Positions 3,181-38,381 of a stretch of 38,381 nucleotides of DNA are shown in pieces. The stretch covers positions 1-38,381 of IMG/VR virus record IMGVR_UViG_3300021356_000058; one strand, 5' to 3'. The DNA is from a virus. The position numbers were made by a program, and so were the translations under genes. Position 1 is the first letter of the stretch. Each line of letters starts with the position of its first letter. Under the pieces are notes generated by a model, which made no database searches, had not been told where the DNA came from, and worked only from the letters and a program-made list of their open reading frames with translations.

Positions 3181-4655
3181 TGGGATTCCGTACAAGATTT
3201 CTGGCAAGGTTAGGTCTGCAGCAGATCCCGCGTCGCCGCCAGAAGCGAGGGTATGCCGGCGCGATGATTTCGCGCTTGACGAATGATTGGTTGTCATCAC
3301 AAGCAAGCGCTGACGCTGAGATTCGCACCAGTTTGCGGAAGCTGCGTGACCGCAGCCGTGAGATGGTGCGGAACAACCCGTACGCCAAGCAGGCAAAGCG
3401 AACGACGCAGATCAACGTTGTCGGGTCGGGTATCAAGCTGCAGTCGCAAGTGCAGCAGGTGCGGACGCGGAAGCCGAATGAGCAGGCGAATCGGCTGATC
3501 GAAGAGAAGTGGAACGTGTGGTGCCGTGCGAAGCATTGCGATGTTGCTGGGCGGCACAGCTTCCACATGATGGAGTGGTTGGCTGTCGGTGCCTTGCCGG
3601 AGTCCGGTGAGGCGCTGTTCAGGATCATTCGTCGTCCGTTTGGCGGCAGTCGCGTGCCATTGGCGTTGGAGATGCTTGAAGCCGATGTGCTGGATGAGGA
3701 ATATCAAGGTCCGACGCTCGCAAGAGAGAATGAGTGGCGGATGGGCGTCGAGGTTAATAGGTGGGGGCGGCCTGTGCGGTATGCGTTCCTGACGCGACAC
3801 CCAGGCGATTACTGGTTCCAGTCTGCGCCGGAGCGTGAGGGCAAGCATATGTTCCTGCCTGCGGACGACGTGATTCATCTGTTCCTGCCTGAGCGCCCGA
3901 AGCAACATCGCGGTGTGCCGTGGTTCCATCCGGTGATGGCAGATGCGCATCAGCTGCAGGGCTATGAGGAAGCCGCTGTGATCCGTGCGCGTGCGGCGGC
4001 ATCGATCATGGGTTTCGTTACCTCGCCCGATGGCGAACTTGATGGTGATGCGGTCGATGCGGATCAGCGAATCTCCGAATTTGAGCCAGGGATGTTTCGT
4101 TACCTGGGGCCTGGGGAGGGCGTAACGGTTCCGGACATCGGATCGCCGGATCAGCAGTTCGAGATGTTTGTGCGCAATAAGGTGCGCAGATTTGCAAGCG
4201 GTTTTGGCTGCAGCTACGAAACACTAAGTCGCGACTTTTCGGACACAAACTACAGCAGCAGTAGATTGAGTCTCTTGGAAGACCGAGAGCACTGGAAGGT
4301 GATTCAGTCTTACATGATTGAACACTTCCACATGCGAGTGTTCCGCGAATGGCTGGATCTAGCGGTACTGAGTGGCGAGTTGCCGTTTGAGGGTTATTAC
4401 CTAAGGCCCGAGCGTTACGACACACCGCGTTGGATGGCGCGTGCTTGGGATTGGGTGGATCCATTGAAGGAGGCGAAGGCTTACCGTGAGATGGAGCAAG
4501 CGGGGTACATGACAAAATCGCAAATCGTTGCGAAGCTTGGTGGGGACTTCAACGACAACTTGACCCAGATCGCGCAAGAGCAACAAACAGCCGCCAGCCT
4601 TAATGTTGAGCTTGATCGCGACATCACGAAATCACCGATGGAGGTTGTTGAGTAA
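3180..4655 (+). CDS. portal protein, lambda gpB family
   Basis: A 491-aa protein with the hallmarks of lambda-type portals: an early basic region (residues 10-25), an NNPYAKQAKRTT segment followed by INVVGSGI (about 60-85), a central EMLEADVLDEEY block, and LFLPERPKQHRGVPWFHPVM (about 226-245), which is strongly conserved in this family. A C-terminal DFSDTNYSSSRLSLLEDREHW motif (about 352-372) is also typical. Portals form a 12-subunit ring at one capsid vertex through which DNA enters and to which the tail attaches. It is start-coupled to the upstream gene by TGATG and to the polyprotein gene downstream by TAATG. Confidence 0.95.
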   Translation: MGFRTRFLARLGLQQIPRRRQKRGYAGAMISRLTNDWLSSQASADAEIRTSLRKLRDRSREMVRNNPYAKQAKRTTQINVVGSGIKLQSQVQQVRTRKPNEQANRLIEEKWNVWCRAKHCDVAGRHSFHMMEWLAVGALPESGEALFRIIRRPFGGSRVPLALEMLEADVLDEEYQGPTLARENEWRMGVEVNRWGRPVRYAFLTRHPGDYWFQSAPEREGKHMFLPADDVIHLFLPERPKQHRGVPWFHPVMADAHQLQGYEEAAVIRARAAASIMGFVTSPDGELDGDAVDADQRISEFEPGMFRYLGPGEGVTVPDIGSPDQQFEMFVRNKVRRFASGFGCSYETLSRDFSDTNYSSSRLSLLEDREHWKVIQSYMIEHFHMRVFREWLDLAVLSGELPFEGYYLRPERYDTPRWMARAWDWVDPLKEAKAYREMEQAGYMTKSQIVAKLGGDFNDNLTQIAQEQQTAASLNVELDRDITKSPMEVVE

Positions 4656-7273
4656 TGCCTGCTATGCCGACTGAGGGTATGCGCGAGGAAGCTCGCCGTT
4701 ACCGCGCATGGAAGGAAGAAGGTCGCAAGGGTGGCACTGATGTTGCTGCTCGCCGCGCTAGCCAGATCCTGTCAGGCGATGAGCTGAGTGATGACACCAT
4801 CGTGACGATGAGCGCGTGGTTCGCCAGGCACGAGGTGGACAAGAAGGCTGAGGGGTTCAGCTCTGGCGAGGATGGATACCCGTCACCTGGCCGCGTTGCA
4901 TGGGCCGCTTGGGGCGGTGATGCGGGCAAGAGCTGGGCTGATGCGCTGGTCGAGCGCATGGATCGAGCAATGGTGACGGGCGATGGTGATAGGCTGTATC
5001 CGAATGAGCACGCTGCTCGACTGCGTGACCCTGATCAGTATGACGAGTTTCGTCGCCGCAACGATGGCGGTGGTGACGGAGTGGACTTCATCTTTGGCAT
5101 CAAGGAAGGCGAGGATGGCGCTGAGCTACAGGCGATCCGATTCCGGCTGTCGAAGTTCACTGCCGCTGAGGCGCGTGCATGGCTGGATGAGCGCGACTAT
5201 GAGGTGATGGAGTTCGAGGAGGCGACTGGCGATCGGGCTAAGCCGGATGAGTTGAAGGTTGGCGATTTCGTTTCTTGGAATAGCTCGGGCGGTCGCGCTC
5301 GCGGCAAGATTGAGCGGATTGTGCGTGACGGCTCGATCGATGTACCTGACTCAAGCTTCAGCATTGAAGGCGGCGAGGATGATCCAGCTGCATTGATTCG
5401 CGTGTATCGGCAAGGCAACGATGGTTGGCAGGGGACTGACACTAGAGTTGGTCATAAATTCAGCACACTGACAAAGATCGAAGCACTACGCGAAATGGAA
5501 GAAGTCAACGTTCGCGACCTTGAGGGCGCGAAATTTAAGCGTGTTGAGGCTACGAAGTTCAACATGCTGGACGAACGGACAATCGAATTTCCGTTCAGTT
5601 CCGAATATCCAGTGGCTCGCTACTTCGGCAACGAAGTCTTGAGCCACGAAATGGAAGCTGCCAATCTTGAGCGGCTAAACGATGGCGCACCGCTGCTCTT
5701 CAATCACGATCCTGACCGCATTATCGGCGTTGTCGAACGCGCATGGATCAATGGTGAGAAAAAACGCGGTTATGTCAATGTGCGCTTCTCGCGCAACAAG
5801 CAAGCGCAAGAAGTGCTTGCAGATGTACGCGACGGCATTCTCCGTGGCGTTTCATTCGGCTACTCCATTGATAAGATGGAGGAACGCGAAAATGACTTCG
5901 TGGCGACCCGATGGTCACCTTTTGAAGTCAGTGTGGTCAGCATTCCAGCTGATCCCACTGTTGGTGTCGGACGTTCTCTGGATGATTCCGAGACCGAGCA
6001 AGCGGCCCCGGCCGCATCTCCTGCAAACACTATGACTGAACCCGTCATGGACAACACTCCTGACCTGGAGGTGATCCGGTCCGAGGCCGTTGAGGCCGAG
6101 CGTAACCGTGCCACCACCATCTCTCAAATCGGCGAGCGTCACAAGCTCCCCGAACTGGCTCGTGAACTGATCGACGGCGGTAAGTCGATTGATGAGGCGC
6201 GTGCTGCTTTCCTCGAAAAAATCGGCAAACAACCTGTGGAACATCGCATCGATGCCAACGATGTTGGCCTCTCCGACAAGGAGACCCGTCGATTCAGTTT
6301 TGTTCGCGCTCTGAACTACCTGGCCAACCAGGGTGATACTCAGGCCCGTCGTGAAGCTGAGTTTGAAATTGAAGTCGGCAAGGCCGCTGCTCAGAAGTAT
6401 GAGCGCTCTTCCAACGGCATCGTGGTGCCGAACGAAGTGCTGCGTCGTGACCTGGTGGTCGGCACTCCTTCTGCCGGTGGCAACCTGGTTGAGGATCAGC
6501 TGCTGGCTGGATCGTTCATCGATCTGCTGCGCAACCGTCTCGCTCTGGCCCAGGCCGGCGTGACGATGCTGACCGGCCTGCAGGGCAACATCAGCATCCC
6601 GAGACAAACTTCCGCCTCGACTGCATACTGGGTCGGCGAAAATTCTTCCCCGCCCGAAAGCCAGCAGGCGATCGATCAGGTGAACATGACACCCAAGACC
6701 GTGGGTGCCTTTGTGGACTACAGCCGTCGTCTGCTGCTGCAGTCTTCGATCGATGTTGAGGGCATGATTCGGAACGATCTCACCCGTGTGATCGCGCTTG
6801 AAATTGACCGCGTTGGCATCTATGGCACCGGATCCAGCAATCAACCTCAAGGCCTGACGTTGACTACCGGCATCGGTAGTGGCGTGTCGCTGACCAGCTA
6901 CGGAACCTTCGACGAGTACATCGCGATGGAGACCGAGGTTGCTGCAGCTAACGCTGACGCCGGCAGCCTGCGGTACATCATCAACGCTTCTGCTCGCGGT
7001 GCGCTGAAATCCACCGAAAAGGCATCGAATACTGCTCAGTTTGTGTTCGAGAACAACGAGATCAACGGCTACCCGGCGATCGTCTCGAATCAGCTGCAAG
7101 GCACCGATGCACTGTTCGGTGATTTTTCGATGATGGTCATGGGCATGTGGTCAGGACTCGATCTCACCGTGGATCCCTTTGCGGGCGCCACTGCTGGCAC
7201 CGTTCGCGTGATTGCGCTGCAGGACATCGATCTTGCGGTCAAGCAGCCTGCTTCGTTCTCGTTTGCTAGCTGA
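4655..7273 (+). CDS. prohead protease / major capsid protein polyprotein
   Basis: An 872-aa fusion. Residues 1-115 are a helical domain found in phage protease proteins. Residues 140-190 are XkdF-like (GVDFIFGIKEG). Residues 197-280 match DUF2945/Tudor-like proteins (KVGDFVSWNSSGGRARGKI). Residues about 280-445 are an S78/HK97-type prohead protease with candidate catalytic His351 (LFNHDP) and Ser400 (GVSFGYS). A Pro/Ala/Thr linker (450-465) leads into a charged, scaffold-like delta region, then the HK97-fold major capsid domain (about 590-870; IYGTGSSNQPQGL is typical). HK97 and relatives usually have separate genes, although protease-capsid fusions are known. In-frame ATGs at 6032 and 6047 could start a separate capsid form, but neither has a clear Shine-Dalgarno. 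Cleavage sites are inferred, not visible. Confidence 0.92.
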   Translation: MPAMPTEGMREEARRYRAWKEEGRKGGTDVAARRASQILSGDELSDDTIVTMSAWFARHEVDKKAEGFSSGEDGYPSPGRVAWAAWGGDAGKSWADALVERMDRAMVTGDGDRLYPNEHAARLRDPDQYDEFRRRNDGGGDGVDFIFGIKEGEDGAELQAIRFRLSKFTAAEARAWLDERDYEVMEFEEATGDRAKPDELKVGDFVSWNSSGGRARGKIERIVRDGSIDVPDSSFSIEGGEDDPAALIRVYRQGNDGWQGTDTRVGHKFSTLTKIEALREMEEVNVRDLEGAKFKRVEATKFNMLDERTIEFPFSSEYPVARYFGNEVLSHEMEAANLERLNDGAPLLFNHDPDRIIGVVERAWINGEKKRGYVNVRFSRNKQAQEVLADVRDGILRGVSFGYSIDKMEERENDFVATRWSPFEVSVVSIPADPTVGVGRSLDDSETEQAAPAASPANTMTEPVMDNTPDLEVIRSEAVEAERNRATTISQIGERHKLPELARELIDGGKSIDEARAAFLEKIGKQPVEHRIDANDVGLSDKETRRFSFVRALNYLANQGDTQARREAEFEIEVGKAAAQKYERSSNGIVVPNEVLRRDLVVGTPSAGGNLVEDQLLAGSFIDLLRNRLALAQAGVTMLTGLQGNISIPRQTSASTAYWVGENSSPPESQQAIDQVNMTPKTVGAFVDYSRRLLLQSSIDVEGMIRNDLTRVIALEIDRVGIYGTGSSNQPQGLTLTTGIGSGVSLTSYGTFDEYIAMETEVAAANADAGSLRYIINASARGALKSTEKASNTAQFVFENNEINGYPAIVSNQLQGTDALFGDFSMMVMGMWSGLDLTVDPFAGATAGTVRVIALQDIDLAVKQPASFSFAS

Positions 7274-34762: not shown

Positions 34763-34843
34763 CACAAGGCTCCAGCGGCTACGGTGAGTGTGTCAGCTCG
34801 CACACATTCAGGTGGCTGAAGAATTGAGGCAATGCCGGCGAAG

Positions 34844-34859
34844 TTCCCTCTGCAGGGAA
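34844..34859 (+). promoter_or_regulatory. hairpin covering the HNH gene Shine-Dalgarno
   Basis: TTCCCT (34844-34849) and AGGGAA (34854-34859) form a perfect 6-bp stem with a CTGC loop. AGGGA is the only plausible Shine-Dalgarno for ATG 34869. The stem would therefore block translation from read-through transcripts that carry the full leader. Confidence 0.55.
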
Positions 34860-34868
34860 TCTTTGCCG

Positions 34869-35441
34869 ATGAGTCAGCTCACGCTAGTAAACGGCAGTTG
34901 GATGTGTGATCCAAACAAATGCCCAAGACGGGTGCCACAGCAAGAGGAATCGACGTATCGCGTCGAGAAACGCTATCTGAATATCGCAAAGATCATGTTT
35001 CTGAGTTCTGGCGCTAACGGTCAAGATCCCGATGATTTTGCGGAAAACTTTGCAGCCAGACTCGAAGAATTAACTGAAGAAATAATCGACTTTGACATCG
35101 AAGTCTATCCATTAGAGGGTGGGTTTATTGGTCATGCGATTGAAGGCTCCGAGCTAGTACCCAAGAAGACAAGCAAAAACAGATTCCGCAAGCACATATT
35201 CGAGGAATGGGACCACCGCTGCGCATACTGCGACAAGCCGGCAGATACACTCGATCATGTCATTCCAAAATCAAAGGGCGGCATGACAATAAAGTCGAAT
35301 TTGATTGCGGCTTGTCGGATTTGCAACGGGTCAAAATCAGACAAGCACTACAAAGAATGGTACAGAAATCAACCATTCTGGGATCAGGCTCGTGCAGATG
35401 CTATTGAATACTGGCTTGAAAACGGCACTCTCGATCAATAA
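34869..35441 (+). CDS. HNH homing endonuclease-like protein
   Basis: A 190-aa protein from ATG 34869. An in-frame GTG at 34788 is less likely since AGGGA precedes the ATG. Residues 1-110 are a less conserved head. The HNH domain is at 113-165: CAYC (C118, C121), LDHVIPKSKGG (D129, H130), NLIAACRICNGSKSDK (N144, C149, C152). This is the zinc-ribbon-type HNH found in free-standing phage endonucleases. Such genes are mobile or aid DNA cutting near terminase. It lies between the lysis/metabolism genes and a leftward gene cluster and overlaps the first of those by 7 nt on the opposite strand. A 106-nt leader with a hairpin precedes it. Confidence 0.85.
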   Translation: MSQLTLVNGSWMCDPNKCPRRVPQQEESTYRVEKRYLNIAKIMFLSSGANGQDPDDFAENFAARLEELTEEIIDFDIEVYPLEGGFIGHAIEGSELVPKKTSKNRFRKHIFEEWDHRCAYCDKPADTLDHVIPKSKGGMTIKSNLIAACRICNGSKSDKHYKEWYRNQPFWDQARADAIEYWLENGTLDQ

Positions 35442-37379: not shown

Positions 37380-37633
37380 GGTGTCTCCGTGATGGTGGTG
37401 GTGCCGCGCAGCTCGGCGGCGATGGCGAGGAGTTTGGATCGGATCTTGAGCTGACGGTTGAACTCTTCGGGGGTAGAGTCATCTGGAATCTGGTAAGCCA
37501 CCTCATCCGCAACAGCCTCCAGGGCGGCAGCGAGACACGGTTCAATCCAGTCATTATCAACCGGAACCAGCGACAGCGGCTGGCGTTCTATGAACGCGGA
37601 TAGGGCCTTCTGTGCGGGTGATTGGTCAGTCAT
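37376..37633 (-). CDS. hypothetical early protein
   Basis: 85 aa from ATG 37633, with GGAGG about 10 nt upstream on this strand. SLVPVDNDWIEPCLAAALEA is followed by a helical EEFNRQLKIRSKLLAIAAEL segment. No family recognised. Starts by 8-nt overlap with the preceding gene and is part of the coupled leftward cluster. Confidence 0.48.
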   Translation of the reverse strand: MTDQSPAQKALSAFIERQPLSLVPVDNDWIEPCLAAALEAVADEVAYQIPDDSTPEEFNRQLKIRSKLLAIAAELRGTTTITETP

Positions 37634-37988
37634 CAGGAAGCGCCTCCAGTGCGCGGCGGATGTTACTCACTCGCCGCTTTAAATCGCCGTGAATCACATA
37701 AGCACTGAGTTGATCAACGGCATGACCATCAATTTGCTCCAAGTCTTCAAGCGCCTGCTCCTTCAGGCTCGGCGGCTTCGGGCGGCGGGCGGAGCGAAGA
37801 TGGTGGGCACCGACAGATGGGCAGTTGTAATCCAACCACTTACAGCACGCCTCAAGCTCCTGATCTGCGCTCCATTGGGCGACTTCTAAAAGGATCGAAG
37901 GTACATCGGCGCCCATAGTCTCGATACGTGCTTGCCACTCATCCATTTTCCACTGCGGTGGGGTGATGGGGTGTTGTTGGTCAGTCAT
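37626..37988 (-). CDS. hypothetical early protein
   Basis: 120 aa. ADQELEACCKWLDYNCPSVG, then RSARRPKPPSLKEQALED and SNIRRALEALPDD, is a helical layout that I associate from memory with proteins of picocyanobacterial phages. Unknown function. It overlaps the upstream gene by 4 nt (ATGA). Confidence 0.5.
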   Translation of the reverse strand: MTDQQHPITPPQWKMDEWQARIETMGADVPSILLEVAQWSADQELEACCKWLDYNCPSVGAHHLRSARRPKPPSLKEQALEDLEQIDGHAVDQLSAYVIHGDLKRRVSNIRRALEALPDD

Positions 37989-38188
37989 GAGAGTGAAGGG
38001 TGTGGGATTTTGTCGTCGGTGTACGGCCAGTCTTGGGTTTCAAGAGTGCGCCATTCGCCGCCGTGTGAAGTATCTGCCCAGGTGTAATAGCCCTGCAGTG
38101 CGGGAACTTTGTTGCCATTGCCATCTGGCTTCATGACGAGGCGATAAGCAACAGGTAGTGATGGCCCGTAGATGGGTTGGCTGGTCAC
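37985..38188 (-). CDS. hypothetical early protein
   Basis: 67 aa from GTG 38188, with AGGAGG five bases upstream, the strongest Shine-Dalgarno in the leftward cluster. A TTG at 38206 is an alternative. VTSQPIYGPSLPVAYRLVMK, then GYYTWADTSHGGEWRTLETQDW, is aromatic and beta-like. It overlaps the repeat gene stop by GTGA. Function not recognised. Confidence 0.5.
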   Translation of the reverse strand: MTSQPIYGPSLPVAYRLVMKPDGNGNKVPALQGYYTWADTSHGGEWRTLETQDWPYTDDKIPHPSLS

Positions 38189-38381
38189 TTCGACCTCCTG
38201 CGACAATGCGGGCTGGGAGTGCCGTTGCCGTTGCCGTCGCCGTAGCCGTAGCCGTAGCCGTCGCCGTAGCCGTTGCCGTCGCCGTCGCCGTTGCCGTCGC
38301 CGTTGCCGTCGCCGTCGCCGTAGCCGTCGCCGTCGCCGTAGCCGTTGCCGTCGCCGTAGCCGCAGCCGCAGCGGTTGCCGT
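38185..38381 (-). CDS. partial gene encoding Gly-(Asn/Asp/Tyr) repeats
   Basis: A leftward reading frame with no stop from the right edge (38381) down to TGA at 38185. The repeats (38221-38376) encode GNGDGYG-type alternating Gly with Asn, Asp or Tyr; the end is NGTPSPHCRRRSK. The 5' part and start lie outside the window. It is coupled to the next gene by a 4-nt GTGA overlap, as the other cluster genes are coupled. That supports its being a real protein rather than a simple microsatellite. Confidence 0.6.
   Translation of the reverse strand, partial: GNRCGCGYGDGNGYGDGDGYGDGDGNGDGNGDGDGNGYGDGYGYGYGDGNGNGTPSPHCRRRSK
38221..38381. repeat. (GCCGTN)n hexamer repeat
   Basis: About 26 consecutive hexamers on the plus strand in which only the sixth base varies (T, C or A in the regular GCCGTN units, never G). 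The three hexamers nearest the edge deviate (GCCGCA, GCCGCA, GCGGTT). The repeat continues to the window end. On the minus strand this is a codon pair: GGC followed by AAC, GAC or TAC. Confidence 0.9.

Follow-up and report, generated by a model that had tools for sequence, protein, structure and literature searches.

A Gly-X repeat gene at the end of a viral contig as the probable second half of a two-gene phage module with a predicted Sm-like protein

Glycine-rich low-complexity tails are known from some eukaryotic Sm/LSm proteins. The number of GGFGGQ repeats in A. baumannii Hfq affects RNA binding and autoregulation, as reported in PMC11617691, and the acidic C-terminal tip of E. coli Hfq mimics nucleic acid and displaces RNA, according to PMC5606850. 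In the open-licence literature, no description of a phage pair consisting of a Sm-like protein and a protein of alternating glycine and a variable residue (Gly-X) was found, and no paper was found on DUF6948.

The window, which is the whole stretch of DNA analysed here, was a linear virus contig of 38381 bases. PHROGs identified genes for terminase, portal, major head, tape measure, tail fibre and endolysin. The structural genes were on the plus strand and small genes were on the minus strand from about 35.6 kb, with an HNH endonuclease-like gene (34788-35441) where the plus-strand late genes give way to the minus-strand small genes. An ORF of 872 aa (4655-7273) matched PHROGs for head maturation protease as well as for major head protein and is apparently a protease-capsid fusion. 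The window DNA matched Synechococcus phages S-CBS1, S-CBS3, S-CBS2, and 7B11-B, which are the named cyanophages nearest to this cyanophage fragment, and no Gly-X runs were found in S-CBS1, S-CBS3, 7B11-B, and a stretch of S-CBS2. The features at the contig end were the following:

37626..37988, minus strand: phrog_32006-type gene (PHROGs)
37985..38188, minus strand: next ORF downstream of the Gly-X gene, whose GTG start and the stop of that gene share GTGA
38185..38379, minus strand: Gly-X repeat gene, 3' part only (64 codons and stop), truncated at the 5' end where the contig stops
38185..38223, minus strand: C-terminus GTPSPHCRRRSK and stop, counterpart of the GT[CVPI]...R.RR of homologues
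38221..38358, coding on the minus strand: 23 perfect hexamer units, GCCGTN on the plus strand and GGC NAC (Gly-Asp/Tyr/Asn) on the coding strand
38359..38381, coding on the minus strand: imperfect units, GCCGCA twice, GCGGTT, and GCCGT to the contig end

The hexamer array made up the final 161 bases of the window, and the contig stopped inside it. The preliminary description of a GCCGTN repeat was borne out by the count of 23 consecutive perfect units, and TRF reported a period of 6 (and 18) with a score of up to 223. On the plus strand, the sixth base of the perfect units was C in 10, A in 7, T in 6, and G in none, in agreement with the restriction first described; if all four bases were equally likely, a given base would be missing from 23 units with p=0.0013, which is a rough guide, the units not being independent. 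On the minus strand, the regular units gave Gly and then Asp, Tyr or Asn with zero His, and the product in the window was GNRCGCGYGDG...GNGNGTPSPHCRRRSK with its stop at 38185-38187. The second-base A of the X codon was invariant in the perfect units. Adenine mutagenesis by a diversity-generating element (a gene of S-CBS3 is named mtd) was rejected, as variation within the X codons of these units was confined to the first base. No overlapping contig turned up when 26 bases of the window were searched for exactly. Many IMG/VR contigs broke within arrays (the window at 38381, and for example L012, L014, L018, L030, and L058), as if short-read assembly were failing there; complete isolate genomes carried the same kind of gene, which answers the earlier concern over an assembly artefact.

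Through the array, every minus frame and two of the plus frames were open, so that openness alone was no proof of the Gly-X frame, and the frame adopted in the preliminary description needed proof. The other open minus frames read Ala-Thr and Arg-[Leu/Arg/Gln], the open plus frames read Ala-Val and Cys/Ser-Arg, and the remaining plus frame was closed by TAG; the variable base was silent in the minus Ala-Thr and plus Ala-Val frames. A pattern scan of viral DNA for six GGCNAC units gave at least 120 stretches. A subset of the translated viral arrays, among the matches listed, started with M..[FM].PVG and finished with GT[VPC]S...RR, examples of the C-termini being GTPSPNRLRRTA (L068), GTCSPHRTRRP (L118), and TVSTSCRRKS (L025). 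In type-A loci collected without reference to arrays, 40 of 57 distinct C-termini had GT[CVPI][SNTEQ] (the pattern as run also took GTA) and 47 had clustered Arg near the end. The window C-terminus fitted the phage protein family M..RP[VI]G-(GX)n-GT[CVPI]...R.RR, and these shared ends fix the Gly-X frame as coding. The window gene had the features of the Gly-X repeat family, namely (GX)n, X mainly Y/D/N/S, and a GT..R.R-type C-terminus, and the claim of a translated gene is sustained by the frame shared with phage homologues. The GTGA overlap at 38185-38188, which had been put forward as support for translation, is real but supports it weakly, the ORF 37985-38188 having no relative in viral_contigs, and the homologues are the better evidence. 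The array in tblastn and blastn and the L102 protein in tblastn gave no match in phages, as low-complexity filtering would lead one to expect. Pfam TrAA12 matches on the Gly-X part were discarded as low-complexity matches.

Comparison of loci argues that the Gly-X gene is the second half of a conserved two-gene module, which occurs in many phages unrelated to one another. A DUF6948-superfamily protein of about 100 aa was recurrently encoded directly upstream of the Gly-X ORF, and the two genes overlapped or abutted. When the scan started from the arrays and used an iterated profile, the partner was found in 88 of 120 viral loci (upstream in 77, downstream alone in 11) and in 4 of 118 cellular loci (L186, L191, L194, and L206), among the matches listed; these four were among the few cellular loci with mixed arrays. 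Many of the 32 viral array loci without a partner started in or near the array and 12 had more than 400 nt ahead of the array ORF, again among the matches listed; some were short runs within other genes, and L060 had DUF7666 instead. Scans that started from the partner, with four subtypes, gave 319 loci (type B entering with 79 of the 80 loci returned, as L121 had been fetched earlier). The Gly-X gene was directly downstream in 310 and upstream in 1 of these 319, a count that the seed alignments, drawn from array-linked loci, may favour. Of the remaining loci, 6 ran off the contig and 2 (L489 and L490, which look identical) had a very short array, only GDGYGDG. The two type-A contigs that ended earliest still began a Gly-X gene. 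L325 entered the count by a wrong frame, but a Gly-X gene starts in its right frame as well.

The curated family PF22253 (DUF6948) gave four matches over the cut-off in 397 genomes of the Sphingomonas sp. Leaf32 family, and all four had a Gly-X gene downstream, one with Val among X. No PF22253 match was found in 398 genomes of the Burkholderia sp. TSV86 family or in 14 control genomes. In a control of 80 loci taken by the window's phrog_32006-type gene, the partner was present in 2 and Gly-X in the same 2 alone. The two products were separate ORFs and not, as in Hfq, a core and a tail on the same polypeptide, except in L022, where partner and Gly-X were fused in one ORF; this was the sole case among the array-first loci, and no fusion was found in the 319 partner-first loci. 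The near-obligate pairing, the overlapping or abutting genes and the fused L022 point to a probable joint action of the two products.

Structure models, made on partner proteins of relatives and not on a window protein, predicted a Sm/LSm fold in two divergent types. The AF2 models had a pLDDT of 89 (type-A L127) and 93 (type-C L412), and the Foldseek top 50 was nearly all Sm/LSm for both, with a prob of 1.00. The best matches were 3by7 (E 1.2e-3, type-A L127) and 1i8f (E 2.7e-3), all E-values being 1e-3 or weaker, and the VIA Z was up to 8.3 and 8.1 for the two partner models, Z of about 8 being a level that the tool calls common. The scores are moderate, but the agreement extends across both divergent types and through the whole of each list. 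Pfam at E<=0.01 gave only DUF6948 and zero Sm/LSm families for 81 partner members; DUF6948 was matched by 42 of the 81 mixed members and by 12 of 12 type-D members, and the representative of type A, the type expected in the window, had no DUF6948 match at E 0.01. A PDB sequence search with partner A1 gave no match, and three weak unrelated matches of partner A5, including MtrB at E 1, were set aside. As the sequence searches miss the Sm families, the fold is given as predicted Sm-like, with no family membership by sequence.

No match to the partner (HMM; PF22253) was found in the sequenced part of the window. Relatives of the phrog_32006-type gene follow the Sm-like and Gly-X pair in L024/L257, L253, and L254, and lie further downstream in L588. 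Since such a gene follows the pair elsewhere, a type-A Sm-like gene is most likely to stand just past 38381, and the window phage would thus carry the partner upstream of the array, beyond the contig end.

Further arrangements were seen around the repeats. In L037:1659-2279 and L060:2-556, a DUF7666 domain (Pfam E about 1e-29) preceded the Gly-X repeats in a fused protein, a second domain context for the repeat. A domain bearing a 'GACxxGV' motif stood at the N-terminus of type D Gly-X proteins (L044, L063, L066, L102, L103, and L119), and no Pfam family matched this domain in L102, L044, and L119. Two more conserved-looking kinds of sequence were C-terminal to the Gly-X part, one in L031, L086, and L110 and the other in L045, L060, and L081. 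The Gly-X gene or the partner was duplicated in tandem in L024, L094, L077, L029, and L606, the last with one partner and then many downstream Gly-X runs.

In the reading that we prefer, and to which we give an even chance of being correct as a whole, the array would encode the 3' part of an intrinsically disordered, alternating Gly-X polypeptide that, in this subtype, finishes with a short basic stretch. The Sm-like protein would form a ring and bind RNA (or single-stranded DNA) during the replication or recombination stage, and the separately made Gly-X polypeptide would serve this ring in trans as a low-complexity tail, much as the glycine-rich or acidic C-terminal tails of Hfq serve theirs in cis. 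The acidic repeats may compete with nucleic acid and hasten its release, and the multivalency of Tyr and Gly may keep rings together. The arrays had an acidic net charge (median -5 to -9 by type), and their median number of aromatic residues was 9 to 16. A low-complexity protein, as first suggested, is what alternating Gly and X amounts to; phase separation, raised at the same time, is possible, and nothing was found in favour of coat binding.

The flanking genes bear on the stage at which the pair would act. The 72 flanking proteins (of 190 prepared ORFs, from 38 loci) belonged mostly to recombination and replication families, with five RecE-like exonucleases, three other exonucleases, RecT/Erf/Sak annealing proteins, helicases, DnaD-type loaders, and thymidylate synthase, and one virion structural protein among them. 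The suggestion of a phage early protein is thereby partly upheld, as homologues among replication and recombination genes fit an early or middle role. These neighbours, together with an SSB gene near the pair in PMBT5 and Sabo, would also suit a pair devoted to single-stranded DNA, in which a Sm-fold ssDNA binder and a glycine-rich acidic polypeptide take an SSB-like part in phage recombination. SSB itself has a disordered glycine-rich linker and an acidic tip. We consider this account unlikely, though the strongest of the alternatives: Sm folds are best known for RNA binding, and early phage regions contain recombination and replication genes regardless.

The pair was present in all five isolate phage regions looked at:

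Rheinheimera phage Barba1A: gp018/gp017
Iodobacter PhiPLPE: gp84 and an unannotated Gly-X ORF (L571 about 1199)
Pectobacterium phage Sabo: CDS0034/0035
Chlorobiaceae phage CV-1-33: gene26 and a Gly-X frame overlapping the annotated gene25 (L573:2279-2525)
Eggerthella PMBT5: gp37/gp38

Gene25 of CV-1-33 as deposited is a MAMAMALAM... ORF in a frame other than Gly-X, and its annotation is probably in the wrong frame. Barba phages differed in the repeat. A 1001-base Barba query spanned 1001 (41 rows), 1007 (17), 1031 (1), and 1043 (1) bases in the 60 listed of 115 Barba records, and in the five sequences compared, the arrays varied by whole hexamers and by X changes, while the partner protein was identical in three and one residue apart in the other two. 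A small two-gene unit with overlapping genes, whose second gene varies fast in these phages beside a nearly fixed first gene, could serve in counter-defence or resemble a toxin-antitoxin pair, the Gly-X protein neutralising the Sm-like protein or being under its control. As both genes were near-universally together and no orphan toxin-like half appeared in the 319 partner-first loci, this is improbable.

Gp38 of PMBT5, a Gly-X protein, carries the annotation 'adsorption protein', which would make the Gly-X product an adhesin or a component of a virion fibre. That role is very improbable for a protein that is coupled or fused to a Sm-like protein, has arrays of about 64-78 residues and has mostly replication and recombination genes, not tail genes, as neighbours. 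The tail in trans to a Sm-like ring remains the reading that we prefer.

The composition of X argues that selection is acting on the Gly-X protein. In 288 distinct homologous arrays (those reached via the partner gene, from loci that include near-identical contigs), four residues, Tyr, Asp, Ser and Asn, accounted for X in 8127 of 9039 pairs, and this limitation to a few residues substantiates the protein-level selection suggested at first. The counts were Tyr 3506, Asp 2062, Ser 1477, Asn 1082, Thr 176, Phe 145, His 115, Gly 101, Cys 80, Glu 70, Val 45, Trp 41, and Ala 33, with others fewer. 'Never His' was thus true of the regular units in the window and too strict for the homologues, where His is rare, not absent. 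In the viral array loci, the variable base was T in 1351, G in 871, A in 569, and C in 32 of 2823 units, His units being 32 of the 2823, among the matches listed. Ser, the fourth main X residue in homologues, was encoded by both TCN and AGY (TCC 1009, TCT 297, AGC 80). Val, Ile and Ala together made up 87 of 9039, though one base from common codons; part of their scarcity comes from the run-finding pattern, which omitted them, though they could still enter via shorter runs. The order of X was close to random, and its composition was conserved: neighbouring units agreed in X at 0.318 against 0.334 in shuffles (slightly lower), and same-X runs were not longer than by chance (4.16 against 4.30). 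Block duplication would be expected to leave repeated six-unit words, and these were commoner than in shuffles (164 of 264 arrays against 86).

In contigs with a GC of 0.30-0.42, Gly was encoded by GGC in 1378 of 1869 codons of Gly-X genes against 103 of 589 in the partner gene, and NAY codons ended in C in 955 of 1493 against 297 of 1056. Third positions so strongly C, in excess of the partner gene in the same contigs, and a sense array RNA in the window with less structure than any of 200 shuffles (z +2.74) would be in line with the (GGC NAC)n mRNA as the ligand of the Sm-like ring, by autoregulation or as a sponge, and the protein as a by-product. This, too, is very improbable, for X tracks the amino-acid class (Ser by way of TCC, TCT, and AGC, and the scarcity of Val, Ile and Ala), and arrays with T-ending units exist (GGC-NNT in L662, TATGGT in Barba19A). 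We tentatively read the strong C at third bases as unit homogenisation plus codon preference. The array of L662, in a bacterial genome, included Val with codons GGC GTT/GAT/TAT; it was outside the run pattern, which lacked Val, and was recognised by eye. Judging by L662, the third base looks fixed per array and is not always C.

The same pattern gave at least 118 stretches in cellular DNA. Among the matches listed, 88 of 118 cellular arrays had one X only, against 6 of 120 viral arrays; identical adjacent units were 739 of 860 in cellular against 731 of 1803 in viral arrays, and His was in the longest array in 19 of 118 against 8 of 120. Cellular arrays look like slippage products, unlike the viral ones. 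The window-type gene showed neither homogeneous units nor freedom from amino-acid class restriction, and a neutral hexamer microsatellite or assembly artefact, which would account for arrays changing by whole hexamers (Barba spans, 60 listed of 115 records) and for the repeated six-unit words, is already contradicted by the fixed partner, the conserved ends, the restricted X and a slippage-like pattern that marks cellular and not viral arrays among the matches listed.

With the Gly-X polypeptide as a tail in trans, selection would act on composition and Gly-X spacing and leave the order free, and drift by whole hexamers would leave the system working. We put forward more tentatively that the pair may be a widespread, unrecognised phage assembly of RNA or single-stranded DNA with protein (RNP/ssDNA-protein), in which a Sm-like ring would receive a disordered sticker-and-spacer tail from a second, coupled gene, possibly with condensates at replication sites. 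Two sets of 'hypothetical proteins', DUF6948 and the Gly-X repeats, become one near-obligate system with a predicted fold; the repeats are unannotated, wrongly framed, or hidden by low-complexity filters. A Sm core with its tail in trans would allow core and tail to be deleted and titrated separately, so that the role of the tail is directly testable, and natural arrays differing only in order and length are a ready-made set.

Among known systems, DUF6948 (PF22253) is the partner's own family, for which Pfam states no function. PDB 3by7, a Sm/LSm-like protein of uncultured source, was the best Foldseek match of the type-A model at only 12% identity. The tails of eukaryotic Sm/LSm proteins are in cis and of RG type, whereas those here are Gly-X with acidic X. 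Sequence searches of Pfam and PDB did not connect the partner with Hfq. A. baumannii Hfq differs in that its tail is in cis, built of GGFGGQ and bacterial, as against a separate gene with strict Gly-X in phage; it is alike in joining a Sm fold to a glycine-rich, repeat-built disordered segment (with an acidic tip there), and repeat number matters there (PMC11617691). In E. coli Hfq, the tip is short and in cis and its interaction is shown, whereas here we infer the interaction; the likeness lies in an acidic disordered segment that mimics nucleic acid on a Sm ring (PMC5606850), the Gly-X arrays being net acidic as well.
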